This document shows positions 13,411 to 56,923 of a DNA stretch of 64,000 bases, piece after piece. Source of the DNA: a virus; the IMG/VR virus record IMGVR_UViG_3300009034_000010, positions 24,722 to 88,721 of that record. The stretch is one strand, 5' to 3'. Position 1 is the stretch's first letter. The number at the start of each line of letters is the position of its first letter. The notes under the pieces were generated by a model. The model saw nothing but the letters and a program-made list of their open reading frames with translations. It was not told the origin of the DNA and ran no database searches. A program made the position numbers and the translations under genes.

Positions 13411-14178
13411 ATGAAGAACAGTATTTTAAAATTTTGTGATGTTTATGAACGAGGAGCAGATACAAACGCTCTTTTGGAAAGTCTGGACGATACGATAAAT
13501 AAAATTGTTCGGTCATGTTTTAAAAGATTTTGTGGATCAATTGATGCAGATGATATAGCTCAGGAAGTAAGGATTCATTTATGGGAAGACATATTTGAAC
13601 ATCCTGAGAAAAATTATTTGGAAAATATGGGTGCTGTAGAAGCTTATAAATACTTAACTACCACTATTAAATCTTGGGTTTGGAGAGCAATAGAACGTTC
13701 AAAAAATGAGAATGTACCGACTGCTTATGAAGAAGATGGAATAAGTGTTTCACTTTTTGTTACACTTTCTATGTTCGATATTGAATATACAAATTTTAAT
13801 TCTCATGAGAGTATAAGAGACTATATACAGTTACTTCGGGATAATTGTTCAGATATACCAAGAGGTCAAATAGTTCTGGAATATCTTGCACCTAAAGAAG
13901 ATATAGACGATAGTGCACCTTCTTTTAAATATGCAGGACTTTCATCAAGTACGTTCTATAAAACGATAAAATTACTTAAAGAAAGAGCTAAAAGACTTCT
14001 TAATGACGAACCTTTCTTGCTTCATAAGAGAGGTAAAGGTAACGTAAAATTAACTGAAACTCAGATACTTGAAATCAGGGAGAGTCCGTTAAGATTAGAA
14101 AAATTGTCTAAAATGTACAAGGTGACAGTTTCCACCATAAGTAATATTAGAAATAAAAAATCTTGGAAAAATATTTAA
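13411..14178 (+). CDS. Sigma-like factor with HNH-type C-terminal HTH
   Basis: 255 residues from the ATG at 13411 (GAGG ribosome site). The N-terminal half looks like sigma region 2 (DADDIAQEVRIHLWEDIFE, then YLTTTIKSWVWRAIERSKNE), and SSSTFYKTIKLLKERAKRLL could be region 4. It may be the counterpart of T4 gp55, the late sigma. Oddly, the last ~50 residues (KLTETQILEIRESPLRLEKL...NIRNKKSWKNI) closely match the C-terminal HTH of this phage's HNH endonucleases, as if a homing gene had fused in frame. Distant similarity only, so the role is tentative. Confidence 0.6.
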   Translation: MKNSILKFCDVYERGADTNALLESLDDTINKIVRSCFKRFCGSIDADDIAQEVRIHLWEDIFEHPEKNYLENMGAVEAYKYLTTTIKSWVWRAIERSKNENVPTAYEEDGISVSLFVTLSMFDIEYTNFNSHESIRDYIQLLRDNCSDIPRGQIVLEYLAPKEDIDDSAPSFKYAGLSSSTFYKTIKLLKERAKRLLNDEPFLLHKRGKGNVKLTETQILEIRESPLRLEKLSKMYKVTVSTISNIRNKKSWKNI

Positions 14179-16160: not shown

Positions 16161-18623
16161 ATGTTTGTTACATTTAAATCAATGGAATTCGTTAATTACA
16201 AGGGAATAAAACACAGTAATCTTGTTCTGGATGATCGAGGTGTGCTTCTTATAAAAGGCGTTAACAATGATAAAACAGGTTCCAATGGTGCAGGAAAGAG
16301 CACAATATCCAGCGGTCTTCTTTGGTGTTTATACGATAGAACTTTGGCCGGAAAAGAAACAGAAGGTGAGATAATCACAGATCCAAAATTTACACCAAAA
16401 AAAGAATTTAAGAAAGAAGGTTGCCGGGTTACTGTTGTTGTTTTACGAGAAGATATCGAGTATCATATTACACGTCATAGGAAGCATCCAGAATTCAAGA
16501 ATAATGTTGTTCTTAAAAAGCGTGTAAAAGATAAGTTCGATAATTTATCTAAGTGTGTTGATAAAGAGACTAACGAACTTATAGTTGATATTATCGGAGC
16601 AGACTTTGATTCATTTGTTCATTCAAATGTTTTTTCTTTTAATAATATTGAGCCTTTCTTAGGTCGGTCAGATAAAGATAAGAAGGAACTCATTCTTCCC
16701 ACTTTCTTCATAGAAAAGTTTCGTGCAGCATATAAAAATACTATTGTTCAGATTAAAGAAGTAGAAGCTGATCTTCAAAATTTGAATAATGATGAAATTG
16801 CTGTGACTGTTGAACGTGTAGAAAAGACTTCGCAAGCTCAAAATGTAAAAAATGATATCATTGCGTATGATGCACAAGTAGAAGTGATCAAAGGTAGAAT
16901 AAAAGAGGAACAGAATAAACAAGAAGAATTATCTTCGCAAGTTGAAGGTAAAAAGAAAATATTAAAAAACATTGAAATAGAATTGGAAACTTTAAAAGAA
17001 AACATTGATAAAAATGCTGATAATATTAGACTTTGCCAAAATAATCAAACTGCATATGATGATTTAATTAGACATAAACTACTTTTGGAAAAAAATCTAA
17101 GTGAATCTCAATTAAAGATGTCAGAATTGAAAAATAATTCGTCTGATTTATCTGTGCATAAGTTGGCAGAATTAAATAATGAAGTTGAAGTAAACACCAA
17201 TAAATTTGCTTATCTTAACGAGAATGAGAAAGAGATATTGGCGGGGGTAAATAAAGAAGAACAATTATTTTCAAGTATTTTAGAAACTAAGAAAAAAATT
17301 GATAATAAAATAAATACACAAATTATAAGTTTAAATGGTGTTGAAAGAAACATAGCTCAGGTAAGTATAACTATAAAACAATTAAATCAGCAAAAAGATG
17401 ATGTGTTAAATAAGTATTTTAGTGAAGAATGTAAAACATGTAAGTACAATAAAATACAAGAGGTTCTGTCTGATATAAAAGTTAACATCGATACTCAAAC
17501 AAAAAGTCTTAAAGAGTCAGAAAGTACTTTAAAACTTATACAAGATGCTATAGAACAATCTAATAATAAGAAAACTGAAGTAGAGGGTTATGAAACTGAA
17601 GTTTGGGCAAAAATAAATAAATTGAAAACAGGAGCTTTAGCCCCTGTTCAAAACGAATTACTTATTGTAAGTAGTAAACTTCATGATCTTAAAGATGCTA
17701 TTATAAAGGTTCAAGGTCAAGTCGATAATGCAAAAACTGTTATTAAAGATATTTCTGATATCCAAGAAGGAATAACAGATTCTGGTAATAGGGTAGAGGC
17801 CGCCAAAAAAGCAATAATAAATTTTGGTGATCGTACTTTAGCTCAAGCTGAACTTAAGAAACAGATGGAACTTAGTAATACACTTAAAAACGATCTACCA
17901 GTCCTTCAGATTAAACAAAGAGAAGCTATCACTGTATTTGGTGAACTTGCTTATGATATAAAAGCGATAGAGCATAAAGTTAAAGAACTAATACCCCAAA
18001 CAGCACCTCCTTCTAACTTACTTTCCAGACAATTAGAGTTAGGTCTTGCTCTTGACGATTTACGTAAAAAGAAAGAAAGTATAGATGATAAAAAGAAATC
18101 TAAAGGAGAAAAATTAGAAATACTAAAATTTTGGAAAGTAGGATTCAGTTCAGCCGGTGTTGAAGGATTTATGCTGGATTCTATTTTAAATAATATGAAT
18201 ACTCTTGTAGCTAAGTATCTTGGTTATTTATCTAATAATACTATCGCTCTTACATTGTTACCGGATAAGTCTCTTAAAAGTGGTGAAACACGGAATAAAA
18301 TTTCAGAACATGTTGATAATGACTCCGGCGGTCCTACTTATAAATCAAGTTCGTCTGGTGAGAGACGAATAATGGATATCGCTGTTTTATTTACTTTAAA
18401 GTATATCTACGAGCAAATTACGAAGACAAAATATAATCTCGTCTTCATGGATGAGGTTTTTGATTCGTTAGATGCGTCTACTTGCAGTTTAGTCATTACT
18501 TTATTACATAGTATGTCTGATATAAATAGTATTTTTGTCGTAAGCCATAGTGAATCAATTGCATTGGAGTTTGATAGTTTTATAACAGCTACTAAAACAA
18601 AAGGTATAACCGAGCTTAGTTAG
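16161..18623 (+). CDS. SbcC/gp46-like SMC-type ATPase
   Basis: 820 residues. Walker A GSNGAGKST (about 40-48), a long heptad coiled coil (about 190-650) interrupted by a CKTC zinc hook (C424, C427), the ABC signature SSSGERRIMDIA, Walker B NLVFMDEVFDSLDAS and an H-loop VVSHSE. Partner of gp47: together they resect DNA ends to load the recombinase and help degrade or process host and phage DNA. It directly follows the split gp47 gene, as in T4-like phages. Confidence 0.92.
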   Translation: MFVTFKSMEFVNYKGIKHSNLVLDDRGVLLIKGVNNDKTGSNGAGKSTISSGLLWCLYDRTLAGKETEGEIITDPKFTPKKEFKKEGCRVTVVVLREDIEYHITRHRKHPEFKNNVVLKKRVKDKFDNLSKCVDKETNELIVDIIGADFDSFVHSNVFSFNNIEPFLGRSDKDKKELILPTFFIEKFRAAYKNTIVQIKEVEADLQNLNNDEIAVTVERVEKTSQAQNVKNDIIAYDAQVEVIKGRIKEEQNKQEELSSQVEGKKKILKNIEIELETLKENIDKNADNIRLCQNNQTAYDDLIRHKLLLEKNLSESQLKMSELKNNSSDLSVHKLAELNNEVEVNTNKFAYLNENEKEILAGVNKEEQLFSSILETKKKIDNKINTQIISLNGVERNIAQVSITIKQLNQQKDDVLNKYFSEECKTCKYNKIQEVLSDIKVNIDTQTKSLKESESTLKLIQDAIEQSNNKKTEVEGYETEVWAKINKLKTGALAPVQNELLIVSSKLHDLKDAIIKVQGQVDNAKTVIKDISDIQEGITDSGNRVEAAKKAIINFGDRTLAQAELKKQMELSNTLKNDLPVLQIKQREAITVFGELAYDIKAIEHKVKELIPQTAPPSNLLSRQLELGLALDDLRKKKESIDDKKKSKGEKLEILKFWKVGFSSAGVEGFMLDSILNNMNTLVAKYLGYLSNNTIALTLLPDKSLKSGETRNKISEHVDNDSGGPTYKSSSSGERRIMDIAVLFTLKYIYEQITKTKYNLVFMDEVFDSLDASTCSLVITLLHSMSDINSIFVVSHSESIALEFDSFITATKTKGITELS

Positions 18624-18624
18624 T

Positions 18625-19194
18625 ATGATAAAAAATAAGAAAAAACGAGATAAAAGAATAAACTCTAAGGATAAAGGTGATCGGTTTGAGCGAACCGTCT
18701 GCAACTTATTCAAGAAACATTGGAAAGTTACCGCTTATCGTACTCCAGGTTCCGGCGCATATACAAGTCGTCAGGTAAGTAAAGCCATGAAGGAAGCTAG
18801 TATAGGTGATGTCGTTATAGAAGAGTTGCCGGAATTTGTTATTGAATGTAAAAATTATTATTCTTTGCATTTTACTGAATGGTTTAAGGATACCTCAAAA
18901 AAGAAAGAGGACATGTCTATATGGGGTTTCTGGAATAAGCTTTTAATTGAAGCTGAAAAATTTAATAAGATTCCATTACTAATATGTAAAGAAGAAAACT
19001 CTCCTGTAGTTGTTATTATGGATGTGGAGCATATTAATATTGTTGAAGATTATAACGGAGGTGTGGCTCCTTTTATGGTAATGGATAAAGAGGATACTCA
19101 AATAGTTGTGTTTGCTTTGAATGAGCTTTTAGTACTTGATTTAGAGACAATAAAGATTATAATAAAAGATATAGTAAATAAGTATAAACGTTAA
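18625..19194 (+). CDS. Holliday-junction-resolvase-like PD-(D/E)XK nuclease
   Basis: 189 residues. The nuclease signature is clear: GDRFERTV (E22), a glycine-rich RTPGSGAYTS loop, IGDVV (D62) and FVIECK (E74, K76), as in archaeal Hjc-like resolvases. It would cut branched recombination intermediates. The ATG immediately follows the gp46 stop, and the basic N-terminus (KKKRDKRINSKDKGD) fits DNA binding. Assignment to resolvase rather than another PD-(D/E)XK branch is moderate. Confidence 0.7.
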   Translation: MIKNKKKRDKRINSKDKGDRFERTVCNLFKKHWKVTAYRTPGSGAYTSRQVSKAMKEASIGDVVIEELPEFVIECKNYYSLHFTEWFKDTSKKKEDMSIWGFWNKLLIEAEKFNKIPLLICKEENSPVVVIMDVEHINIVEDYNGGVAPFMVMDKEDTQIVVFALNELLVLDLETIKIIIKDIVNKYKR

Positions 19195-19217
19195 TTTTTT
19201 ACACGAGGCTTTAAATT

Positions 19218-19688
19218 ATGGCGAATAAGAAACGTACTGAAAGAACTCTTAAGCAAATGAGAGCTAAAAAAGAAATTTCAAAAGTTGCTAAAGCTAAAAA
19301 TACAGTCAAGATTGAAGGTAAAAAACCTGCTTCTCAACTTCAACTCTTTGAAATGCAGAGAACCTTCTCAGCCAGAGTAGATGCTTCTATAATGAGTACT
19401 GCCGCTATTGCGAAACTATTGGTTGATAAAGGGGTAATTACCTGGGACGAGTATAAAGAGTCCTATAGAACAATGAAAGAAAATTTGGTCTTCGTAAGAA
19501 ATACCACATCAGAAGCTATAGCATATTTTGGAGCTAAAGCAAATAACGAAGATATAGGCGCTTTTATTTACGAAAAAGGTATTGCTTTTGGTATGGACCC
19601 TGGCGTACTCGATGGTATATTCGGTGCCAAAAAATCTGAAAGTCGTATCATTAAGCCTAATCAAGTTAAAATTATCCAAGCTAAGTAG
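19218..19688 (+). CDS. Hypothetical basic protein in the recombination operon
   Basis: 156 residues with a strongly basic N-terminus (MANKKRTERTLKQMRAKKEI) and a helical remainder (AKLLVDKGVITWDEYKES). No motif I recognise. Good GAGG ribosome site; lies between the resolvase-like and polymerase genes. A DNA-binding replication accessory role is possible but unsupported. Confidence 0.65.
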   Translation: MANKKRTERTLKQMRAKKEISKVAKAKNTVKIEGKKPASQLQLFEMQRTFSARVDASIMSTAAIAKLLVDKGVITWDEYKESYRTMKENLVFVRNTTSEAIAYFGAKANNEDIGAFIYEKGIAFGMDPGVLDGIFGAKKSESRIIKPNQVKIIQAK

Positions 19689-19705
19689 CCTACCGGAGTA
19701 AATAA

Positions 19706-22402
19706 GTGAAGTACGAATGCCCTGATAATACATGTGAATTTAAAGGTGAAGGTGTATGTCCTTACCCTGTATCTAAAGGTAAGAATTGTATTCACCACAT
19801 AGAATCTCCGTGTGTAAAATGCAAAGTAGAAAAGAATTTGTATCCTGCTTTCGGAAACGCTCAGAGTCGAGTTATGGTTATAGGGGGCTGTAACTTTGAC
19901 TCTGATAAAGATATAGTTATTTCACAATTTAATCAAGCTTCCGCAGAAGCGAATTTACCTGCATCATATTACTACACTACTGCAATTTCTTGTTATGTAA
20001 ATAAAAAACCAACTATTAATCTTATTAAGCGCTGTAATAAATGGCTTAAACAACAAATAGACATAATAAAGCCTAAATACGTTATGTTACTTGGTGAAAC
20101 TGCTTTTAAGGCTGTTCTATGGGATTTTGATCTTATTACAAGAAGAAAACCTGAGATAGATGCATGTGCAGGGGCTCATATAATAAAAGATGGAATAGTT
20201 TACTTTCCTGTCCATAATTTTAAGGATATTGAAACTAATATCTCTAAGCGTCAAGCATTTAGAGAACATCTTATAAAATTTCTTGAATTAATAAATGGAG
20301 TAAGAAAAATAACTCCGACTTATTATAAAGAAGCTGACTCTGAGAAAGATCTTTCATACATAAAAGAGATAGCTGAACAAACTGGACGAGTAGCTGTTGA
20401 TATTGAAACAAATGCTTTTACTCCATTTCTGCCAGATTCAGAGATAACAACTTTGTCATTATCTGTTAACGAAGCTGAGTCTTTCGTTCTTCCTTTATCG
20501 TACCGGCACGGGGCTTATTTCAAAAAATGGAATTATACTCCAAAGGTCAATCCTTTATTAGCTATTACATATATCAATAAATTATTGAAAGATCCTAATA
20601 TTACAAAGATTTTTCATAATGCTGCTTTTGATATAGTTTGGCTGGAAACTATTCTCGGTCTTGAAATTGTTAATTACGATGACACAATGCTCATGAAATT
20701 CTTAATGAATCAGAATGAGCAAGAACGAAAAGCTTTAAAAGTTCTTCTTAAACAACATACTGATATTGGTTTTTATGAGTACGCACTTAAACAATATGTT
20801 GGTGACGGTGAATCCTATATGAATATCCCTCCCAATATTATGGTTGATTATAACGCAGGGGATACAGATGGTACTCTTCGTTTGTGGAACCTTTTCCGAC
20901 CAAAGCTTCGAGATAAAGAACTTTGGGATATTCATTATAATTTTATGGTGCCTCAACTTAGAGGTATTATGGATTTAATAAAGACAGGAATTGCGTTAGA
21001 TGTACCTCATTGTATACGTATGAAAGAGAAAAATGAGGAGCGACTTATTGAATTATTTTCTAAATTACGATCATTACAGGAAGTAGCAAATTTTGAAAGA
21101 CAGACTGGTTTAGAATTCAAGCCTAGTTCCGATAAACATAAATTCGCTGTTGTTTATGGTGGGGAAATTACGACTGAGGAAGAGGTGCCTCGTAGGATAG
21201 TAAACGGTAAAAAACAAGGTAAAAAAGAGTATCAGAAAGTTGTGTTCAATAGTGGTTTTAATTTAAAAGAAATAACTGTTTCTGCAAAAACTAAAACCGG
21301 AAAGAGAGAACAACGAAAGTCCTTTGGGAAAAAGGCTATTCAGCAATATTTAAGGAGTATTTATAAAGATGTTGAACTTTTAGATCCGATAAATACATTT
21401 AATCTTGATCCTTTACCTGATAACACGAATATTATGAAGTTTATTAAGTTATCAACTGAAATTGGATCTATTCAAACGCAATTATCAAATCATATAGAAC
21501 CTTTTATTAACATGTGGGGGAATACTATAGATAAATGTGTTCATACTTCATATGATATTACTGGAACTACTACAGGCCGATTATCGTCTCGGAATCCTAA
21601 TTTACAAAATCTTAAACGTGATGGATTTGTGAAGGAAGCTTTTGTTTCCAGATGGGGCGATGACGGAATTCTTATAGAAGCTGATTATAAGCAGCTTGAA
21701 TTATTTGTCATGGCTATAGTTAGTCAGGACCCGACATTTATTCATGCTTTTGCTAATGGAATTGATCTTCATTTGAAAACGGCAGCTAATATTGTTTTTC
21801 GGTGTGTAGAAGAAGCTGTATCAAAGCAAATGCGCACAATGGCCAAAACGGTAAATTTTGGCATAATTTACGGAAAGACAGCTTATTCCCTTAAAGAAGA
21901 TTTAAATGTCACTGAGGAGGAAGCTGAGGCCATTCTGGAGGGGTATTTTAGAGAATACCCAGGTGTGTACGCATATTGTGAAAGAATAAAAGCTGAGGCT
22001 CGCTCTAAAGGCTTTGTTACTACAGTAATGGGTAGGCGGCGTTACTTAGATTATTCAGACCCGAATGGAGCGGATAGACAAGCGGTGAATACCACTATTC
22101 AGTCTCCGGCTTCCGATGTTTGTGTGACGGCGGTAAATTTATTACAGCAATATTATCGGAAAGTAGCTACAGACCGGGCACTTAAGACAAAAACGAAAAA
22201 TACTAATTGGTTTTTAGATAAAGAAATTAAGAAAAATACTGTAGCTTTAGCTTGCGGAACTGTACACGATAGTATTATAATAGACTGTAAAAGAGCATTT
22301 TTGAATCCGATTGTTAAGGCTACTAAATTAATTATGGAAAATACTGGGTTACCCTGGCTGACTATTCCTCTTAAAGTGGATATAAAATACGTAAAAATTT
22401 AA
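19706..22402 (+). CDS. polA: Uracil-DNA-glycosylase-like domain fused to DNA polymerase I
   Basis: 898 residues from a GTG start (CCGGAG ribosome site). Residues 1-195 look like a family 4 uracil-DNA glycosylase: N-terminal cysteines, SPCVKCKVEKNLYPAFG (C36, C39), IMV-like VMVIGG, AISC...KRCNKWLKQQID and LLGETAFKAVL. A DnaQ-type 3'-5' exonuclease follows (VDIETN with D232 and E234; FHNAAFD, D309; Y382/D386), then a family A polymerase: motif A EADYKQLE (D660), motif B RTMAKTVNFGIIYG (K714) and motif C VHDS (D855). The usual GEAPG water-activating loop of the glycosylase is replaced by GGCNFDSD, so glycosylase activity is doubtful while the polymerase looks intact. Confidence 0.88.
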   Translation: MKYECPDNTCEFKGEGVCPYPVSKGKNCIHHIESPCVKCKVEKNLYPAFGNAQSRVMVIGGCNFDSDKDIVISQFNQASAEANLPASYYYTTAISCYVNKKPTINLIKRCNKWLKQQIDIIKPKYVMLLGETAFKAVLWDFDLITRRKPEIDACAGAHIIKDGIVYFPVHNFKDIETNISKRQAFREHLIKFLELINGVRKITPTYYKEADSEKDLSYIKEIAEQTGRVAVDIETNAFTPFLPDSEITTLSLSVNEAESFVLPLSYRHGAYFKKWNYTPKVNPLLAITYINKLLKDPNITKIFHNAAFDIVWLETILGLEIVNYDDTMLMKFLMNQNEQERKALKVLLKQHTDIGFYEYALKQYVGDGESYMNIPPNIMVDYNAGDTDGTLRLWNLFRPKLRDKELWDIHYNFMVPQLRGIMDLIKTGIALDVPHCIRMKEKNEERLIELFSKLRSLQEVANFERQTGLEFKPSSDKHKFAVVYGGEITTEEEVPRRIVNGKKQGKKEYQKVVFNSGFNLKEITVSAKTKTGKREQRKSFGKKAIQQYLRSIYKDVELLDPINTFNLDPLPDNTNIMKFIKLSTEIGSIQTQLSNHIEPFINMWGNTIDKCVHTSYDITGTTTGRLSSRNPNLQNLKRDGFVKEAFVSRWGDDGILIEADYKQLELFVMAIVSQDPTFIHAFANGIDLHLKTAANIVFRCVEEAVSKQMRTMAKTVNFGIIYGKTAYSLKEDLNVTEEEAEAILEGYFREYPGVYAYCERIKAEARSKGFVTTVMGRRRYLDYSDPNGADRQAVNTTIQSPASDVCVTAVNLLQQYYRKVATDRALKTKTKNTNWFLDKEIKKNTVALACGTVHDSIIIDCKRAFLNPIVKATKLIMENTGLPWLTIPLKVDIKYVKI

Positions 22403-22457
22403 GAAATATGAAAGAGTGGGATGAGAAGTCCGAAATAATATTGGACAAGGCGACGTA

Positions 22458-22799
22458 ATGTATAAAATATTAAATTATGCAGACAGATCCAGAACTCTTG
22501 AGGAGGTGGCTCGTATTCTTAAAGCATCTTTAGGTATACGAATGCTTAAAGGCCGAGAAGATATGTGGCAGGTAAAATTAGAAAAAGTTGAAATACTTGA
22601 CAGCAGCAATCCTTTAAAAACCAAATATGCTTTTGTTAGAAATAATAATCCGAATGCTGCTTTAAATCTTTTATGTGTTAAACTTTCTTATGCACTTGTA
22701 CGTATAGACGATACTAAGTACCGTTTAGGCGAAATTAAACGTGGTCCAATGTATCTCAGATTATACGAAGAAAATTGGAGTACTGATAGAAAAATATGA
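22458..22799 (+). CDS. Hypothetical protein downstream of polymerase
   Basis: 113 residues (MYKILNYADRSRTLEEVARI), mixed alpha/beta, no recognised motif. Preceded by an AAGGCG ribosome site. A tiny ORF (22408-22458, 16 codons) lies between it and the polymerase gene and is probably not meaningful. Confidence 0.6.
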   Translation: MYKILNYADRSRTLEEVARILKASLGIRMLKGREDMWQVKLEKVEILDSSNPLKTKYAFVRNNNPNAALNLLCVKLSYALVRIDDTKYRLGEIKRGPMYLRLYEENWSTDRKI

Positions 22800-22862
22800 A
22801 TGAATTATTTAATATATTATTGATAAAGTTATATACAAAAATTGAGGGGATCGATGTCTAAG
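22797..22862 (+). CDS. Possible 21-residue hydrophobic peptide
   Basis: MNELFNILLIKLYTKIEGIDV starts on an ATGA overlap with the previous stop and ends overlapping the start of the next gene at 22854. The coupled start and stop suggest it is at least translated as a link between neighbours; a function cannot be claimed. Confidence 0.3.
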
Positions 22863-23282
22863 TATAATTTAACTGAACCAAGTGTTGCAATAAGACTAGG
22901 CAAAGCTGGTGAGCACTTTGTATGTTTTGATTTATTAATGCAAGGTTACAGTGCATTTTTAGCTGATAAAGATAGTTCTTATGATATAGTTGTAGAAGTA
23001 GAAAATACGCTAAAAAGAGTTCAAGTCAAAACTACTGCTAATATTAAAAGTTACTCGCATTCTAAAGATACTTACAGATACAGTACAAGAAGAGCTAAAG
23101 GTGCTAGGAAAAGATTTGATATAGACGAAGTAGATGTATTTGCTTTTGTAGCTACAGATATTCAGAAAATATGTTATATTTCTATAAAAAACATGATTAG
23201 TGCTTCAGGTGGGGTAAAACAAGCTATATGTTTGAAACGAGGACAATTCAGTATAAATAGTAGGTTAGTAAGTGCATTATGA
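22854..23282 (+). CDS. PD-(D/E)XK endonuclease, possibly homing type
   Basis: 142 residues from the ATG after GAGGGG. Pattern: GKAGEHFVCFDLLMQGY (conserved glutamate), DSSYDIVVEV (catalytic D) and KRVQVKTT (Q-x-K). This resembles the PD-(D/E)XK homing or group I intron-associated endonucleases such as I-Ssp6803I. It lies between the polymerase region and a methylase gene; no intron is recognisable around it, so it may be free-standing or a nuclease paired with the adjacent methylase. Confidence 0.65.
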   Translation: MSKYNLTEPSVAIRLGKAGEHFVCFDLLMQGYSAFLADKDSSYDIVVEVENTLKRVQVKTTANIKSYSHSKDTYRYSTRRAKGARKRFDIDEVDVFAFVATDIQKICYISIKNMISASGGVKQAICLKRGQFSINSRLVSAL

Positions 23283-23860
23283 AAAAATTTAAGATTATTC
23301 TGTGTGACCCTCCATGGACATATAATGACAAACTTACTTACGGTAATGCTAAAAAAGGTGTTCATTATAAGTATAAAACCTTGTCTATAAAAGATATTAA
23401 AGATTTGCCTATACAAAATATTGCAGCCGAAGATTGTACTTTATTTTTATGGGGTACTTGGCCTTTATTAAAAGAGTGTATAGCGACCATGGAAACATGG
23501 GGTTTTGAGTATAAAACAGGTGGGTTTGTATGGGTTAAAGTTACAAAAACAAAGCCTACAAGAGCTGTTACGGCGTTAGGTAGGTATACTCGTGGTAATA
23601 CTGAATATATCTTAATTGGAAGAAGAGGAAAATTTTTAGAAAGACATAATAAAAATATTTCACAACTTATCATGACTCCAAGAGGTGAAAAGAATAGCGA
23701 AAAACCTGTATTGGTCAATACACAAATAGATAAGTTGTATGGGTCACAATATCGTAAAATAGAGTTATTTGCTCGAAGATGTCATCCCGGATGGACAGCT
23801 ACCGGATTAGAGTACGATAAAACAGATATTCGGGACTTCTTAAAGAGGTACGAAAAATGA
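23279..23860 (+). CDS. MT-A70-like adenine methyltransferase
   Basis: 193 residues with the family hallmark DPPW (CDPPWTYND at about 9-17), followed by LFLWGTWPLLKECI and a C-terminal HPGWTATGLEYD region. Such phage enzymes make N6-methyladenine in DNA, which can protect against host restriction. It overlaps the PD-(D/E)XK endonuclease gene by four bases, an arrangement reminiscent of a restriction-modification or self/non-self pair, though the nuclease looks more like a homing type. Confidence 0.8.
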   Translation: MKKFKIILCDPPWTYNDKLTYGNAKKGVHYKYKTLSIKDIKDLPIQNIAAEDCTLFLWGTWPLLKECIATMETWGFEYKTGGFVWVKVTKTKPTRAVTALGRYTRGNTEYILIGRRGKFLERHNKNISQLIMTPRGEKNSEKPVLVNTQIDKLYGSQYRKIELFARRCHPGWTATGLEYDKTDIRDFLKRYEK

Positions 23861-24855
23861 GCGATAATCACATATTACTTTATCATGCTTTATTTGGTGG
23901 TAAGATACAAGATTTAGCAACTAAATTCGATGTATCTACTTCGAAGATACATCGAATTTTAGATAAAGCAAAAAAAGAGCATTCTTACTATTGGAAATTT
24001 AATAGAAATAAAGAATTAACTGAAGCTTATATAAACGAATTTGGAAAAGAAATTTTTAAGGATATTCTTTCACTTGAAAAAATAGGTTTGGGCGAGGAGT
24101 TCAAAGTTCCATTAAATAAGCCAAAAAAAGTAGTAGCAATAGCAGACGTTCATTATCCGTTTAATATACCATTTACGGGTTTTGAAAAGTTTCTCGCAGA
24201 TTACAGTCCAGATGTTCTTATTTATTTAGGAGATTTTATAGATGTTCCTTATTTGTCTAAGTATGATAAAAACAATAAATTAGTACTTGGAAATAAACTT
24301 AGACAAGAGTATGATGACGTTATGGAAATAATGGATCGTCAGATTAAAATTTCTAAAGCTAACGAAGTCTACTATGTGGAGGGTAACCACGAATTCAGAG
24401 TTCGAAAATTTCTTGAAGAATATCCTGCCGGAGAGGGTTTTATAGAAATACCTATTGCAATGAAACTTGAGGATCGTGGTATAACATGGATTGAATTAAA
24501 TGATTGGATTAGACTTGGCAATCTCTTTTTTACTCACGGTATGTACCATAATAAATATCATGCGAGACAACATTTAGACACACATCAACGAAATATTATA
24601 TACGGACACCTTCACACACATCAAGTGCATAGTGGATATCACCCGTTTGATAAGTCGCTACCTTATGTAGCGAAATCTATTCCGTGTTTTTGTCATCTTA
24701 ATCCAACATATATGAAGAATAGGCCGAATCAATGGTTGAACGGGCTTTATCAATGCGAGATTGAAACTAATGGTACTTTTTATGATAATATATTGGTTGT
24801 TATCAATGGCGTAATTCGTATTGTAGGAACAGGCAAGAGGTATACAAATGAGTGA
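23857..24855 (+). CDS. Calcineurin-like phosphoesterase with N-terminal HTH
   Basis: 332 residues. The metallophosphoesterase motifs are complete: IADVHYP, YLGDFIDV, VEGNHEFR, FTHG and GHLHTHQ (about 95-255). The first ~55 residues contain an HTH-like segment (IQDLATKFDVSTSKIHRILDKA) that should bind DNA. Overlaps the methylase stop by four bases. Related phage proteins are annotated as DNA repair or SbcD-like exonucleases; substrate unknown. Confidence 0.8.
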   Translation: MSDNHILLYHALFGGKIQDLATKFDVSTSKIHRILDKAKKEHSYYWKFNRNKELTEAYINEFGKEIFKDILSLEKIGLGEEFKVPLNKPKKVVAIADVHYPFNIPFTGFEKFLADYSPDVLIYLGDFIDVPYLSKYDKNNKLVLGNKLRQEYDDVMEIMDRQIKISKANEVYYVEGNHEFRVRKFLEEYPAGEGFIEIPIAMKLEDRGITWIELNDWIRLGNLFFTHGMYHNKYHARQHLDTHQRNIIYGHLHTHQVHSGYHPFDKSLPYVAKSIPCFCHLNPTYMKNRPNQWLNGLYQCEIETNGTFYDNILVVINGVIRIVGTGKRYTNE

Positions 24856-30335: not shown

Positions 30336-31111
30336 ATATGATTGTTGTAGCAGCGACTACAATATCTGACGCTTTTCATCAAATGTTGTACAAATTTTTT
30401 GAAAAAGATAGTGACAAGAACTATGTTAATGCATATGTCACTGACATTGATTCTGGTAGTTTCGGTAAAGATAAAATGGGGGAAGAGAGTGGTGCTCAAC
30501 AAAGATTACAAGCCAGTTTAGCTGTAGCTGAAATAACTCATCCTGAAGCTCGACCTTTATCGGTAACGTTTCCTGAGCAGTTGAATATTCCTCCAGTCTG
30601 TACTCAAGACAGCATTGAGGATTATTTTGCAAACTATCTTATGAATGCTGAATTGTCAATAAATGAAACATACACCTATGGTAGTAGAATGTTGGCATTT
30701 CCTAGGATTGTAACTGATAAATTTCCTTACAGCCCTGATGGTAAGTTATTAACGTATCCTATTAAGAAATTCAATCAGATTGACTGGATTATAGATCACC
30801 TTAAAGCAGCCCCCGGTAATAATCATTGTTGTGTTGAAATAAGCAAAGGGGATGATCTTCTTCTTAAGCACGCCCCTTGCCTCAGATTGATTTCATTTAA
30901 AATCGTTAATGGAAAGTTAAACGTCACTGTCTTTTTTCGTAGTTGGGACTTCTGGAGCGGATTCCCTACGAATCTCGGTGGTATTCAATTATTAAATGAG
31001 TATGTGGCTTCAGAGATTGGGATAGAAACCGGTACAATGTTCGTTCTGTCAGACGGTCTTCATGTTTATACTCATAATGTGAAATTCGCTCTTGAGAGGT
31101 TGGGAAGATGA
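30332..31111 (+). CDS. Divergent thymidylate-synthase-like protein
   Basis: 259 residues. The C-terminal half carries thymidylate synthase landmarks: HAPCLRLISFKI where the synthases have the catalytic PCH-x-Q loop (Cys kept, His changed to Leu), RSWDFWSGFPTNLGG matching the RSxD...G-P-x-N nucleotide-binding segment with the base-selecting Asn kept, and SDGLHVYTHN near the end (D-x-H-x-Y). It could make dTMP or a modified pyrimidine such as hydroxymethyl-dUMP; the sequence alone does not decide. Start overlaps the upstream TGA (ATGA). Confidence 0.6.
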   Translation: MNMIVVAATTISDAFHQMLYKFFEKDSDKNYVNAYVTDIDSGSFGKDKMGEESGAQQRLQASLAVAEITHPEARPLSVTFPEQLNIPPVCTQDSIEDYFANYLMNAELSINETYTYGSRMLAFPRIVTDKFPYSPDGKLLTYPIKKFNQIDWIIDHLKAAPGNNHCCVEISKGDDLLLKHAPCLRLISFKIVNGKLNVTVFFRSWDFWSGFPTNLGGIQLLNEYVASEIGIETGTMFVLSDGLHVYTHNVKFALERLGR

Positions 31112-32076
31112 TGCAAATAAAAAGTTTAGTATTTGAAGGAGGTGGAGTAGCAGGCATTGCTTATGGAGGAGCCTTAACTTTCATGGATACTCATCATTTG
31201 CTTGATGATGTAGTGAGAGTTGGAGGAACAAGTGCTGGAGCTATAACAGCCTGTTTAATGGCTATAGGATGTGAAGCGGACGAGATTCAAGAAATTATCA
31301 AAGAAACAAAATTTTCCTCTTTTCAGGATGATAGTTTTGGTGTTATTCGTGATAGTGTCCGACTTATGAGAGATTATGGTTGGCATAAAGGTGAGACATT
31401 CAAGACATGGCTTAAGGGTCATATTACAGATAAATTTGGTTATGATGGTGTTACTTTTGCTGATTTAGATCGAAATAATAGTTGGTACATACGGTATGAA
31501 ACATCTTTATGTAGTTGGGACAAATCTAACCAAACAACAGTCAGAAATTTATTCTCATGAAACTAACCGAATATGTTGATCGCAGACGCTGTAAGAATTT
31601 CTATGGGAATCCCTTTTTTCTTTCAATGTGTTGAGAATAAAGACGGAGACATTTTAGTAGATGGTGGGGTAGCAAATAACTATCCTGTGAAGATGTTTGA
31701 TAAGAGAAAGTATTATAATCAACATGCAAAGACTCCTAATTCTGAAGAAAAATTGTTTAATCCTGAAACAATTGGATTCCGGTTAGATACTCAAGAAGAA
31801 ATTAATGCAAATAAAGATTGGGGAAATACTTCGGTTGAAATAAACAGCTTGAGTGACTATATTGGTGCTGTGTTGTCTTATTTTATGGAAACAGCGAATA
31901 AAAAGCATCTTACTGAAGCTGACCGGCGCAGAACCATTTTCATAGATAAAGCTCATATCAAAGCAACTGACTTTAGTCTTACTGATGAAGATGTAGATTT
32001 ACTTATAAAGAATGGAGAAAAAGCTGTTAAAAAATTTTATGAACTTGAACTTGAACTTGAACTTGACAGCGTGTAG
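31108..32076 (+). pseudogene. Patatin-like phospholipase, frame interrupted
   Basis: Two same-frame ORFs (31108-31560 and 31573-32076) are separated by in-frame TGA and TAA. The first has the oxyanion GGGVAG motif and nucleophile GTSAG; the second has the catalytic DGG (VDGGVANNYPV) after IADAVRISMGIPFFF. Between them the +1 frame reads SHETNR, matching the FSHE...P block usual before IADAV, so two compensating indels are likely. An intact enzyme would hydrolyse phospholipids, perhaps for lysis or takeover. The C-terminus ends in a glutamate-leucine repeat. Confidence 0.8.
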
Positions 32077-34132: not shown

Positions 34133-34146
34133 ATTTAGAGGTTATA

Positions 34147-34764
34147 ATGATAAATATAGGTATTTTAGTTTCGGGAAATGGTACAAATATGGAAGCTATT
34201 TTAAAAGCTTCCGAGAATGGTATTTTAGAAAATAGAATTAATCCTGTAGTTATTATCTCTAATAATAGAGAAGCAAAAGCTATAGAAAAAGCCCGGAAAT
34301 ATAAGTCTATAGTAGAGTTTATAATAGAAAGAGAAACATATAAAAGTGCTCAAACTTACGATAAAGCTGTTTGTGATACTCTTAAACTTTATGAAGTTGA
34401 TCTTGTAGTATTAGCCGGTTATAATAGATTAATAAAAAATTATAGTCATCCTGACTGTATTCTTCGCTCTTTTTCAAAAAGAATAGTAAACATTCACCCA
34501 TCACTTCTTCCAGCATTTCCTGGTATGGGAGCTATAAAACAGGCTCTTGACTATGGTGTTAAGATCACAGGTTGCACGATTCACTGGGTAGATGCCGGGA
34601 TGGATACCGGAAAAATTATTAAACAGAAAAGTTGTATAATAGAGCCTGAAGATACGTTAGAAACATTAACAAATCGTGTTCATAAAAGTGAGCATTCTCT
34701 TTATGTAGAAGCATTAAGAAATGTTTACTTTTTGATGAAAAGACCAAAATATGACAAATACTAA
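34147..34764 (+). CDS. purN: Phosphoribosylglycinamide formyltransferase
   Basis: 205 residues from the ATG after TAGAGG; longer frames upstream are tRNA sequence. Motifs: LVSGNGTNMEAIL (phosphate loop), VLAGYNRLI, NIHPSLLPAFPG (catalytic N, H) and VDAGMDTGKII (catalytic D). Transfers a formyl group in purine synthesis, boosting the purine supply for phage DNA. It is the only purine-pathway gene visible here and stands right after the tRNA cluster. Confidence 0.88.
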   Translation: MINIGILVSGNGTNMEAILKASENGILENRINPVVIISNNREAKAIEKARKYKSIVEFIIERETYKSAQTYDKAVCDTLKLYEVDLVVLAGYNRLIKNYSHPDCILRSFSKRIVNIHPSLLPAFPGMGAIKQALDYGVKITGCTIHWVDAGMDTGKIIKQKSCIIEPEDTLETLTNRVHKSEHSLYVEALRNVYFLMKRPKYDKY

Positions 34765-46980: not shown

Positions 46981-47054
46981 ACACACAATTTTTTCGTAAT
47001 TATAAATACCCACATTTCTGCCGGTCGCGGTAGTCCTACCTGTACGTGGTTACC

Positions 47055-47070
47055 TGCAAGGATCGTGCCA
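47055..47070 (-). promoter_or_regulatory. Perfect sigma54 (RpoN) promoter core, leftward
   Basis: Minus strand TGGCACGATCCTTGCA, a full match to TGGCACG-N4-TTGCW with the correct GG/GC spacing. Points left toward the methylase terminator; divergent from the site at 47086. Confidence 0.6.
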
Positions 47071-47085
47071 CGATTGGAGACCTTA

Positions 47086-47101
47086 TGGCATAACTCTTGC
47101 T
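47086..47101 (+). promoter_or_regulatory. Sigma54-like promoter, rightward
   Basis: TGGCATAACTCTTGCT: consensus GG and GC dinucleotides at -24/-12 with TTGCT. Predicted start near 47112; a perfect 15-bp hairpin (47186-47216) ~100 bases on could end a short RNA. A weaker overlapping match TGGTATACTTATTGCA lies at 47134-47149. Confidence 0.55.
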
Positions 47102-47185
47102 ATAGCATGAATCATACCAGAGAATCATACACATGGTATACTTATTGCATAATGCAAGAATTAGGTACATGATCTTTATCATATT

Positions 47186-47216
47186 GAATGATTATTGCAT
47201 GATGCAATAATCATTC
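47186..47216 (+). repeat. Perfect 15-bp palindrome with TTGCAT-N-ATGCAA core
   Basis: GAATGATTATTGCAT (47186-47200), one central G, then its complement (47202-47216). The TTGCAT-N-ATGCAA core also occurs at 47146-47158. Either an activator-binding site or the 3' hairpin of a small RNA. Confidence 0.7.
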
Positions 47217-47896
47217 TTAGTATATGGTAGTAGGATAGGGGCACTATCCCCTATACCATGCCCATACATACAGTACATATACAGTCAACTCCATATCACG
47301 CCCATAGCGTACCCATACAGGCCATATGTACTCCAGGCAATAGCAAGGCCTAGGCTTATCCTATATCTCTTTAGTATGGGGCTCTGAGAGGGTCGATTAT
47401 TAAGGCTTACTATAGCAGCGTTCAGCATAGAGGGTACTGTGTATATGGGTACTGCATACGTGCGTATGGTGTGTATATAGGGTGTACTGTGGTAGGTAGC
47501 AGGCGCTATACGGCGTATATGGTAGGGATACGCCTTAATAACGAGCATATGAGTTATTTACTACAGATCAATAGTGGATATAGCGTACTGGAGAGACTCG
47601 ATATTAACACATTGATATTGCTCACTATTGCCTTTCGCTTTTTTAAAATAGCCTTAATTCCCATAATCGGGTTATATCACCTTAAACCGGGGTATATGGC
47701 AATCCGTTTGATACAGCACTCCCTTTCCCTTGCCCTAACCCTCTCCTTTACCCCTACCCATTTCGAAATCGTAGGGTACATTCATTGCATATTCATAAGC
47801 GTGCCATGGTACAGGTGAGTGTGGCACGGACAATGATCATGCCATAATAAAAAGGCTTTGGCATAGACAATGATCGTGCCAGCCCTATTAGGGTCT

Positions 47897-47912
47897 TGGC
47901 ATAATTCCTGCA
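47897..47912 (+). promoter_or_regulatory. Sigma54-like promoter, rightward
   Basis: TGGCATAATTCCTGCA (-24 GG, -12 GC correctly spaced), predicted start near 47923. Downstream sequence folds into GC-rich hairpins (GCGGCTATCCAGCCG at about 47936; GGGTAAGGGAGTACCC at about 47954) and reaches a hairpin with pyrimidine-rich tail at 48077-48117. Confidence 0.5.
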
Positions 47913-48076
47913 TTATAGCAAGATGTGTGCCGGGCGCGGCTATCCAGCCGTAGGGTAAGGGAGTACCCTTATATGGCTTTATTGTATTACGTGTATATGG
48001 CCTTTGCTCTGTGTCTTATAGGGATTAGTAGATATATGGGCTTATATAGGAGGGGTTTATTGAGGGTATTTACAGA

Positions 48077-48117
48077 AAGGTGTTTTTTCGTTAACTTACA
48101 CCTTCCTTTTCCTTTAG
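48077..48117 (+). terminator. Hairpin with pyrimidine-rich tail
   Basis: AAGGTGT (48077-48083) pairs with ACACCTT (48098-48104), followed by CCTTTTCCTTT. A plausible end for an RNA started at 47923. Confidence 0.4.
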
Positions 48118-48123
48118 GTTAAG

Positions 48124-48176
48124 TTAAGGTATGAGTATAAGTGTCTGATAATAAAGGCTATAGCTCATACCCTTAA
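48124..48176. terminator. Imperfect hairpin between convergent regions
   Basis: TTAAGGTATGAG (48124-48135) pairs with CTCATACCCTTAA (48164-48176) with one bulged base; TTTATTAGC follows on the plus strand. May stop leftward transcription from the small-gene operon and rightward RNA. The remaining bases to 48261 hold no gene. Confidence 0.45.
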
Positions 48177-48261
48177 TTTATTAGCTGTTTTTCCTTCTAA
48201 TTTTTCATCTTTTAACTGCTTTGTTTGGGATTTTAACTTGTTTTAACCAATCGTTAACTTA

Positions 48262-48453
48262 TTAACTTACCTTTTTTACTTTGATATGTTTTCCTATACT
48301 TTTCCGAAGGTTGAATTTACCTTGTATACAAGAATGGTTACAATTTACTTGTCTGTTAAAGAATGGGCTATCCTCATTATAACAAAGTACCTGTCTCACT
48401 CCTGCCTTTATTATAACTTGTGCTGTATCCTTCCTATGTAGCACGTGCCGCAA
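48262..48453 (-). pseudogene. Cys-rich ORF, likely out-of-frame tail of the upstream gene
   Basis: 63 residues from a TTG (or GTG at 48444) with LCYNEDSPFFNRQVNCNHSC, like the second half of a zinc finger. The preceding gene ends in VCGTC just where this frame begins, so a one-base indel near 48440 may have split one zinc-finger protein. No good ribosome site of its own. Confidence 0.4.
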
Positions 48454-50173: not shown

Positions 50174-50520
50174 CTTTTAACGTTTATACCTTCTAACTTA
50201 TGGCCTACGAAACAATTCCTTGTATCAAAATTCTTGCATACAGATAATCCTACATTTAAAGTGACATAATCTTTGCTATACTCGATACCTGTTACCTCTC
50301 TCCATTTGTTAGGCATATAATAGCTATCATGATAAATTAGATCGCCTTCTTTCACTTCATTAAAAGCTATGCTTTCCGGTTTAGCGTCATGGCGGCAAGT
50401 GATACAATAAGGAGAAATGACCTTAATTAAAGGCTTTGTGATATCATTCATGACGTGTTGAGTAAAGAGAATTTTATGCGAAAACTTACCGCATTTCTTA
50501 CACTTAAGTTTATTTTTCAA
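50161..50520 (-). CDS. Zinc-finger protein (TTG start)
   Basis: 119 residues from TTG at 50520 with GGAGTAAAAGACC upstream. N-terminal KCKKCGKFS and YCITCRHD form a zinc ribbon; the rest is a beta domain (EGDLIYHDSYYMPNKWREVTGIEY). Overlaps the previous stop. Confidence 0.65.
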   Translation of the reverse strand: MKNKLKCKKCGKFSHKILFTQHVMNDITKPLIKVISPYCITCRHDAKPESIAFNEVKEGDLIYHDSYYMPNKWREVTGIEYSKDYVTLNVGLSVCKNFDTRNCFVGHKLEGINVKRCTQ

Positions 50521-50782
50521 GGTCTTTTACTCCTTTCTTACCTTCGAACATAGGAGTATTATAAGCCTTCCAAAAATCCCACTTCTCGTATAAGCAATAT
50601 TTATACCAAACAGTATCATCTAACAAGTTATCGTAGGGTTTTTGCTCTTTATAGGAAAGCCAGACATACTCGCCCCTCTTCCAAAATTGAATAAGTGCGA
50701 CCTTACCCCTATAGTTAGTTATTACTTTACCCCCTAAGAAAAGGGCTATAAATAATAACCGTGTTGATACAATGTTTTTCAT
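50510..50782 (-). CDS. Hypothetical protein with N-terminal hydrophobic segment
   Basis: 90 residues. MKNIVSTRLLFIALFLGGKVITN looks like a signal peptide or anchor; the remainder is aromatic (FWKRGEYVWLSYKEQKPY). AAAGG ribosome site. May be exported or inner-membrane. Confidence 0.6.
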   Translation of the reverse strand: MKNIVSTRLLFIALFLGGKVITNYRGKVALIQFWKRGEYVWLSYKEQKPYDNLLDDTVWYKYCLYEKWDFWKAYNTPMFEGKKGVKDLEK

Positions 50783-52346: not shown

Positions 52347-52487
52347 TTAGAAGTTTTCATCCAGTTCCTTTAAGAGTTCGTCTGCTTCTTTTTCTGTAAG
52401 GTCATTCTCGTTGAATTTTGCGTAATCAGTGTGGAAGAAGGTGTACTCTGTAGTGAGGGTTTTTAGTATTTTGGTTAAGGTTTTCAT
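52347..52487 (-). CDS. 46-residue protein, first gene behind a sigma54-like promoter
   Basis: MKTLTKILKTLTTEYTFFHTDY..., acidic C-terminus (DLTEKEADELLKELDENF). AAGGAG ribosome site 32 bases into the predicted transcript from 52519. Function unknown. Confidence 0.6.
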   Translation of the reverse strand: MKTLTKILKTLTTEYTFFHTDYAKFNENDLTEKEADELLKELDENF

Positions 52488-52529
52488 TGTTTTCTAGCTC
52501 CTTGTTTTTGTGTTCTTACTCTTATATAT

Positions 52530-52545
52530 AGCAAGTCCCGTGCCA
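52530..52545 (-). promoter_or_regulatory. Perfect sigma54 (RpoN) promoter
   Basis: Minus strand TGGCACGGGACTTGCT: identical to the TGGCACG-N4-TTGCW consensus, preceded by the favoured T and followed by A/T. Predicted start near 52519, 32 bases before the first ATG. Inverted TGACA repeats lie 87-153 bp upstream of the -12 element. Confidence 0.72.
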
Positions 52546-52617
52546 AACAAAAAGCTAATAAAAACAATGAGTTAGAATTGAGGAGGGATAGAAAGTGACA
52601 CAATACGTCATAACTAG

Positions 52618-52684
52618 TGACAATTATTGACACTACCCGTCCCTTTATTTATGCAGGTTTACAAAGAGGTGTCAATAATTGTCA
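52618..52684 (-). promoter_or_regulatory. Candidate enhancer: 16-bp inverted repeat with TGACA half-sites
   Basis: TGACAATTATTGACAC (52618-52633) and its exact complement (52669-52684) lie 35 bp apart; a further TTGACA-N5-TGTCAA palindrome is at 52691-52707. Position and symmetry fit binding sites of a sigma54 activator. Confidence 0.6.
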
Positions 52685-52703
52685 AAGATGTTGACAAAAT
52701 ATG

Positions 52704-53030
52704 TCAATTTTTAGCATGGAGGAAGGCAAGAGTGTAACACCATATAACGGCGTAACGAGTGTCGGAAACAACTTCATACAATCTTTGCACAAAATTTTCA
52801 GTTTTTAAAAGTGGGTTATAGTCTGCTTTATACCAGTCAAGCATACGATTATAAACCGTTTCATTTATCATGCTTTTTGCTTCTTCAGTCTCCCTTTTGA
52901 CTATTCCGCCCACTTTTAAACGATCAAGCTCTTGCTTATATTCATTATAATGAGCAGCTAAATAATGAGCCTGATTAACGTCTCGTTTAATCTCTTGCTC
53001 AAATTTGACATGATAACGGTAAGCGTCCAT
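52704..53030 (-). CDS. Hypothetical protein
   Basis: 108 residues (MDAYRYHVKFEQEIKRDVNQAHY), highly helical, aromatic end (VIWCYTLAFLHAKN). GAGGAG ribosome site. Its 3' end overlaps the outermost TTGACA-N5-TGTCAA palindrome of the enhancer region. Confidence 0.6.
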   Translation of the reverse strand: MDAYRYHVKFEQEIKRDVNQAHYLAAHYNEYKQELDRLKVGGIVKRETEEAKSMINETVYNRMLDWYKADYNPLLKTENFVQRLYEVVSDTRYAVIWCYTLAFLHAKN

Positions 53031-54817: not shown

Positions 54818-54845
54818 AGTATAGCGTGAATTCAAGATTTGTCAA
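54818..54845 (-). promoter_or_regulatory. ACTTGACAA-type promoter overlapping a stop codon
   Basis: Minus strand TTGACA (54845-54840), 16-bp spacer, TATACT (54823-54818). The TGA of the KTSC gene (54844-54842) lies inside TTGACA. Confidence 0.78.
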
Positions 54846-55937: not shown

Positions 55938-56213
55938 TTATTCTTCTTCCTCTTGACAACATTCCTCTGCTTCCTCTTTATAGCAGTGCATACTATCGCA
56001 CGCCCCACATTTAAAACTGCCTTGATCCCGTTCTTCTGCATCGATATGATTATTGTAAGACTCCCGGAAGGCGATATTATCCATTTCAAAGAGAATATCG
56101 CCTTGATTCATTGTCATACCGCAAATATCAACGGTAGGGTAATTATCATTTAAAAACTCCTTATAGTCCTCTTCTGTTATCTCTTCTAACCAATCAATTT
56201 CTATTGCATCCAT
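55938..56213 (-). CDS. Acidic Cys-rich protein
   Basis: 91 residues from the ATG at 56213 (AAGGAAGTGTTAAAC). Very acidic (MDAIEIDWLEEITEEDYKEFLND), with KCGACDSMHCYKEEAEECCQEEEE at the end, a possible zinc site. The acidic profile would suit a DNA mimic; not proven. Confidence 0.58.
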   Translation of the reverse strand: MDAIEIDWLEEITEEDYKEFLNDNYPTVDICGMTMNQGDILFEMDNIAFRESYNNHIDAEERDQGSFKCGACDSMHCYKEEAEECCQEEEE

Positions 56214-56459: not shown

Positions 56460-56633
56460 TTAAGCTTCATTCCAGCCAAAAGGATTAAAGAATTTTCTGT
56501 TACCGTCTGGGCACTCTCCATAACCACACTTTGTACTCTTATAAGCATATACAGAACAATTACCGCAATTTTTTAATTTATCTCTTATATCCTTTTTGCA
56601 ATAATTACACTGGCAACCTGCACACTTTTTCAC
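56460..56633 (-). CDS. 57-residue Cys-rich protein (GTG start)
   Basis: Nine cysteines: KKCAGCQCNYCKK, NCGNCSVYAYK and CGYGECPDG. Likely binds two metal ions. GTG start after AAGGAGTAAAATC; first gene behind the sigma54-like promoter at 56682. Confidence 0.6.
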   Translation of the reverse strand: MKKCAGCQCNYCKKDIRDKLKNCGNCSVYAYKSTKCGYGECPDGNRKFFNPFGWNEA

Positions 56634-56681: not shown

Positions 56682-56697
56682 AGCAATGCTCATGCCA
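56682..56697 (-). promoter_or_regulatory. Sigma54-like promoter, leftward
   Basis: Minus strand TGGCATGAGCATTGCT, one mismatch from the consensus (C to T at the sixth base). Predicted start near 56671, about 38 bases before the GTG at 56633. TGACAGTTATTGACAC, one base different from the arm at 52618, lies at 56842-56857. Confidence 0.65.
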
Positions 56698-56841
56698 AAA
56701 CATAAGAGTTAATAAAAACAAGTAGTTATAATCCGGAGGAAGTTTGGGAAATTAACAAATTTTGTCACCCTATTTAACAAAAGCTTGCTTAACTGATTGA
56801 TTGTGTTATAATAATAGTAAAGTGACATTTAACGGCATGTA

Positions 56842-56857
56842 TGACAGTTATTGACAC
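56842..56857. promoter_or_regulatory. TGACAGTTATTGACAC element
   Basis: Fifteen of sixteen bases are identical to the inverted-repeat arm at 52618-52633, and both lie upstream of a leftward sigma54-like promoter (here ~160 bp). Neighbouring copies GTGACATTTAAC (56822) and GTTATTGACATT (56877). Confidence 0.6.
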
Positions 56858-56907
56858 TTAGTTAACTGTTAAGAGAGTTATTGACATTTTCTATTAATAA
56901 TGTAAAT

Positions 56908-56923
56908 AGCAAGAATTATGCCA
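56908..56923 (-). promoter_or_regulatory. Sigma54-like promoter, leftward (second)
   Basis: Minus strand TGGCATAATTCTTGCT. Followed leftwards by the TGACA elements and no gene until 56633, so it may produce a long leader or a small RNA. Confidence 0.5.

Follow-up and report, generated by a model that had tools for sequence, protein, structure and literature searches.

Putative sigma54-type promoters and upstream half-site arrays ahead of small-gene operons in a phage genome

The window analysed here, 64,000 nucleotides long, comprises bases 24722-88721 of a virus record of 88,722 bases. Its minus strand carries an island of small genes, within which lies an element, P1, that the original prediction had described as a full match to the RpoN consensus. 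The element indeed has 12 of the 12 defined bases of the sigma54 -24/-12 consensus TGGCACG-N4-TTGCW. That prediction had left out a pair of paralogous modules, which lie at 56682 and 56908. The features of the locus are as follows:

52530-52545 (-): P1, TGGCACGGGACTTGCT
52347-52487 (-): gene heading the P1 operon, product of 46 aa, SD AAGGAG
52589-52713 (no strand): putative P1 enhancer, an inverted repeat in which seven half-sites are exact (TGACA/TGTCA) and an additional one reads CGTCA
56682-56697 (-): P2, TGGCATGAGCATTGCT, paralogue of P1 identified by repeat search and alignment
56460-56633 (-): gene heading the P2 operon, product of 57 aa, SD AAGGAGT
56763-56886 (no strand): putative P2 enhancer with five TGACA/TGTCA half-sites
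56908-56923 (-): P3, TGGCATAATTCTTGCT, third copy of the core, in tandem upstream of P2
57038-57104 (no strand): palindromic array upstream of P3 with six TGACA/TGTCA half-sites
50593-50608 (-): exact TGGYAYR-N4-TTGCW within gene 50510-50782, from the consensus search
47055 (-), 47086 (+), 47104 (-) and 47134 (+), spanning 47055-47149: sigma54-like sites in a structured non-coding junction
47897-47932 (no strand): inverted pair of sigma54-like sites with one mismatch each, in the same convergent junction

P1 lies in an intergenic region of 216 bp. Sigma54 transcripts start about 11-12 bp downstream of the element, and the predicted start of P1 falls at about 52519. The distance of 32 bp to the genes that had been claimed holds from this start; from the end of the site, the same ATG (52487) is 42 bp away. 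On the minus strand of the P1 region (52488-52703), no pair of -35 and -10 hexamers 15-19 bp apart reaches 9 of the 12 sigma70 consensus bases. P2 is placed similarly, 48 bp ahead of a co-directional unit, with a predicted start at about 56671, so that the "one gene set" of the original prediction becomes at least two operons. No gene follows P3 directly, and transcription from it would run on into P2. A family search gave no informative match for the first gene of the P1 operon, which is followed by more small genes down to about 48.4 kb, and no family match for the first gene of the P2 operon. The genes of both operons are small, and a single one of those tested (55938-56213) matches a family, itself of unknown function. 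P1 and P2 agree at 70% over 57 nt and at 83% over a second block of 29 nt just upstream. When the three copies are aligned, TTTGGCAYR and TTGCTAT-TA are kept (TTTGGCA-N6-TTGCTAT-TA) and the intervening bases vary; the GG and GC of TGGCAYR-N4-TTGCW lie 10 bp apart, as in the sigma54 class.

The frequency of these sites was compared with simulated sequences and with altered patterns. The window holds two 12/12 matches to TGGCACG-N4-TTGCW, the second one in non-coding DNA at 47055-47070 (-), against 0.017 per 64 kb in first-order Markov copies. The looser TGGYAYR-N4-TTGCW has seven exact matches in the whole record (the second-order Markov mean for the window is 0.11), and the same two blocks never occur there with spacers of 0-3 or 5-12. 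With one mismatch allowed, 16 sites are found for the forward pattern and two for the reversed one. The form TTGGCAYN5TTGCT occurs three times (P1, P2 and P3) and in none of 100 simulated windows. Many equally good matches inside genes would have spoken against the original prediction; just one of the seven exact sites, that at 50593, lies in a gene, and it is probably a chance match.

The 16-bp inverted repeat of TGACA half-sites that had been noticed upstream of P1 is real and forms part of a larger structure, with 45-nt arms (52589-52633 and 52669-52713) that are 73% complementary and 35 nt apart. Its inner arms are GTGACAATTATTGACAC and GTGTCAATAATTGTC, its half-sites are mostly spaced by 10 or 12 bp, and the array of P2 contains TGACAGTTATTGACA, the same element as in P1. 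TGACA/TGTCA half-sites are found upstream of each of P1, P2 and P3, at about 80-190 bp in the modules, and all five TG[AT]CA-N5-TG[AT]CA pairs that the 88.7-kb record contains (0.24 expected per distance) fall in these modules. Dyad half-sites that recur 80-250 bp ahead of a promoter are of the enhancer type, and those described here would belong to it; in a survey of Clostridiales, enhancer sites mostly lie 100-250 bp upstream of sigma54 promoters (PMC6615313). A frequent form of bEBP site in the same survey, TGT-N10-12-ACA (PMC6615313), has one exact match at P1 (TGTCAAAGATGTTGACA at 52680-52696, which is TGT-N11-ACA) and one near match, and was not seen at P2 by reading. A Pho box was also considered for the TGACA repeats and rejected: PhoB repeats are 11 bp apart and the spacing here is 10.

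A search for TGTCA-N5-TGTCA-N60-90-TTGGCAYN5TTGCW returned seven viral matches, versus none when the enhancer half-sites were reversed. Among these, three other phages (G003, G004 and G005) carry the element GTGTCA-N5-TGTCAC, or one close to it, together with a sigma54-type site 46-64 bp ahead of a co-directional, SD-led small gene; the proteins of G003 and G004 have distant cultured relatives only. The exact P1/P2 promoter with TATATANAAGAG gave no match in other viruses. Close relatives spanning 47-57 kb were not found, and the sole kin of the phage (L003, 82% in the terminase) is devoid of sigma54-type sites. The activator domain PF00158 is absent from the record and from 32 others, and the RpoN domain PF04552 from the record and from 27 others, whereas control genomes matched in both cases; in particular, the records with the enhancer-plus-promoter module have no bEBP domain. 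A phage-coded activator or RpoN was accordingly discarded as the reader. Since the examined phages encode no activator, nor RpoN where tested, the sites are probably read by RpoN and an activator of the host. As a separate observation, the 255-aa protein encoded at 13411-14178 (+) has a weak Sigma70_r2 match (E 0.0055, under the curated cut-off) and may be a divergent phage sigma factor.

To our knowledge, no bacterial sigma class other than sigma54 depends on an ATP-driven activator to start transcription. We favor, with reasonable though not full confidence, the interpretation that P1, P2 and probably P3 drive small-gene operons as sigma54-dependent promoters read by host RpoN and a host enhancer-binding protein. 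The sigma54 reading of the original prediction thereby gains partial support from the position of the promoters, the half-sites, the three copies, the occurrence of this module in three other phages as well as the lack of phage RpoN or bEBP genes. The RpoN-containing RNA polymerase of the host would settle on the -24/-12 element of P1-P3 and wait there as a closed complex, which a host enhancer-binding protein seated on the upstream TGACA/TGTCA array would open by ATP hydrolysis; because the closed complex needs that activator, the genes would fire only when it is active. What the sequence shows directly is the elements, the fact that they are repeated and lie ahead of SD-led operons, the lack of a sigma70 alternative at P1 and their recurrence in other phages; that RpoN binds them, which activator acts, the transcript and its timing are inferred. 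The Clostridiales sigma54 consensus TTGGCATNNNNNTTGCT (PMC6615313) agrees with the sites.

The reader of the TGACA/TGTCA arrays could be something other than a host activator, or the arrays could be operators. One possibility, which we regard as doubtful, is that they serve a phage repressor as operators, or a replication or partition protein as binding sites, with no relation to any sigma54 activator, in which case the promoters may still be of the sigma54 class. Their large dyad symmetry and irregular half-site spacing also resemble a stem-loop or an operator, the DNA stem-loop scores z = -5.1, and the TGTCA-N5 pair is not general in the sigma54-type arrays described below. Yet, every such pair in the genome is upstream of sigma54-like sites, and the same coupling is found in three other phages against none in the reversed control.

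A wider survey suggests that sigma54-type usage is common in uncultivated phages. Tandem pairs, defined as two sites 5-35 bp apart, occur in at least 120 viral stretches, where about 0.05 would be expected by chance in the collection according to our own estimate. Among the array loci listed (at least 120, 967 kb), 456 sites have the N4 spacer versus a total of 11 for nine other spacers, and the reversed pattern has no match in 27 whole array records. Neither a bEBP nor RpoN is encoded in any of 27 such records. The GG and TGC almost never change in the variants, C can become T and the first T mostly becomes C, as in YTGGCA, a pattern of substitution that looks like the tolerance known for sigma54. 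By DNA similarity, 122 listed loci fall into 51 groups, one of which comprises 61 loci. The array is about 1.3 kb upstream of a terminase gene in 61 loci; cultured relatives are distant. In the loci that were read, the array sits between the structural operon and a divergent small-gene operon. Among the loci listed, 196 of the 237 sites near terL point away from it and 41 towards it, and a TTGACT-N17-TATACT of its own is present on the terminase side in L074 and L065; therefore the sites of these uncultivated phages also point at small genes. Elsewhere, array sites are at a median of about 295 bp from gene starts. Upstream of the arrays of other phages, TGT-N10-12-ACA is not clearly enriched, so the idea that the arrays generally come with a UAS is unsupported. 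In L079 (2054-4550) and L099 (4705-5819), sigma54-type pairs are located upstream of sigma70-like promoters, point away from them and adjoin CTGCCATTTTGGCAG hairpins, a layout repeated about every kb.

Not every sigma54-type match looks like a promoter. The junction at 47000-48250 of the window is non-coding, convergent (the plus genes stop at 46890 and the minus genes at 48411) and strongly structured (z from -3.5 to -4). A search for known RNA families gave no match. Its sites are on both strands and partly in inverted pairs, and they do not precede any co-directional unit; because no gene follows them, they are not obviously promoters. A comparable arrangement appears in phages with cultured members. 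A 53-nt array query mainly matched non-coding DNA of Vibrio T5-like phages, and in VPT02, KIT04 and Thalassa the sites are beside DnaA boxes in the non-coding parts of the pre-early segment. For the first two of these phages, this includes the junction after the rightward genes, which matches the annotated T5 injection stop region. The sigma54-type sites beside DnaA boxes in these phages are the following:

L155: 761-963 and 3074-3330
L156: 3717-6347
L157: 500-577 and 3145-3561

The T5 injection stop contains repeats, palindromes and DnaA boxes and may bind host components (PMC13250531). Like it, the junction of the window is convergent and non-coding, with repeats and palindromes, but it differs in having no DnaA-type TTATCCACA, a box that is absent from the whole window. 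A tblastn search of the window with A1/A2 of T5, KIT04 and Thalassa gave no match, so that the combination of A1/A2 with DnaA boxes beside a junction, which characterizes the T5-like injection stop, is not found there; the phage of the window shows no sign of being T5-like. The array phages were likewise rejected as T5-like, as A1/A2 were not found in the array loci examined and only a distant TerL is common with Thalassa.

These sites without a gene ahead raise an unlikely alternative: the sites would bind RpoN holoenzyme mainly as silent parked complexes, decoys or roadblocks that hold back DNA entry, forks or polymerase, or that titrate RpoN. It would account for the dense tandem and inverted arrays, for the sites of the window junction and of the injection-stop-like junction of the Vibrio phages, and for the fact that, among the array loci listed, 38 of the 39 TTATCCACA boxes are at most 500 bp from a site, a zone that covers 17% of the sequence. 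Nevertheless, P1 and P2 are placed like promoters, the sites near terL are oriented 196 to 41 away from it, a DnaA box is nearby in only 14 of 83 loci, and phage T5 has the boxes and no sigma54-type site. A broader version, to which we give hardly more credit, is that many phages load their non-coding DNA with host-factor sites (RpoN elements, and DnaA boxes in the T5-like phages), and that parked, silent RpoN holoenzyme would serve as gated promoters at operon heads, as a roadblock pausing DNA entry or polymerases at convergent junctions, or as an RpoN sink. For the T5-type injection stop, a parked RpoN holoenzyme may be a new candidate. Since the cultured Vibrio relatives (KIT04, VPT02 and Thalassa) carry the sites, a concrete and cheap test of this unexplained stop is available.

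It seems still less probable that P1 and P2 work as plain sigma70 promoters of the extended -10 kind (TGCTATATA), with the sigma54 match as a by-product. A TGC-TATATA does overlap the -12 element in both, but this -10 is missing its last T and a matching -35 at 15-19 bp was not found, a lack that rules out an extended -10 at P1 on the minus strand; moreover, it is the sigma54 bases that P1-P3 and the other phages conserve, with the exact N4. Strong sigma70 promoters (TTGACA-N16/17-TATACT, 11/12) are present in the same small-gene island, at 54845, 55351 and 51085 (-); the island would therefore mix sigma70 and sigma54 promoters. Finally, lone 12/12 matches do arise by chance in large collections, but a chance origin of P1 in AT-rich phage DNA is refuted by the Markov expectation, the spacer controls and the paralogous copies.

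If P1-P3 are sigma54 promoters, they resemble the bacterial sigma54 and bEBP systems of Clostridiales (PMC6615313) in their -24/-12 element, the GG-N10-GC, the half-sites 80-200 bp upstream and the lack of sigma70 elements at P1. They differ from them in being phage-borne, in three modules per genome and with no activator gene nearby, and their half-sites fit TGT-N10-12-ACA only in part. Phages such as SPO1, phiEco32 and T4 rely on a sigma70-family factor that is encoded by the host or by the phage. As in these phages, a class of phage genes would be given to one holoenzyme; contrary to them, the class here would be sigma54, with its requirement for an ATP-driven activator. The phage shock response (PspF, sigma54) also shifts sigma54 activity on infection, but it concerns a host operon, and here the promoters are on the phage. 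Sigma54 promoters are well known, but phages relying on them have apparently not been described: no phage promoter of this class was found in the openly accessible literature searched on phages and sigma54, in agreement with the original prediction. The phage resistance of Salmonella rpoN mutants was discarded as a sign of such promoters, as glutamine and RpoS account for it (PMC8744999). If phages use sigma54, a host signal, and not the strength of the promoter, would gate expression, and host range and burst size would come to depend on RpoN and its activators.

Other genes of the window and its relatives deserve a mention. A phosphoribosylglycinamide formyltransferase-like protein is encoded at 34144-34764 (+), with at most 44% identity to the bacterial relatives found; neither this comparison nor that of the terminase points to a host. 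The frame of a patatin-like phospholipase at 31108-32076 (+) is apparently split in two, as judged by eye from its translation. Glycosyltransferase-like and methyltransferase-like genes are found by eye within the structural cassette of G000 (16700-24300, L005), and the relative L003/L006 likewise has such genes in its structural cassette.
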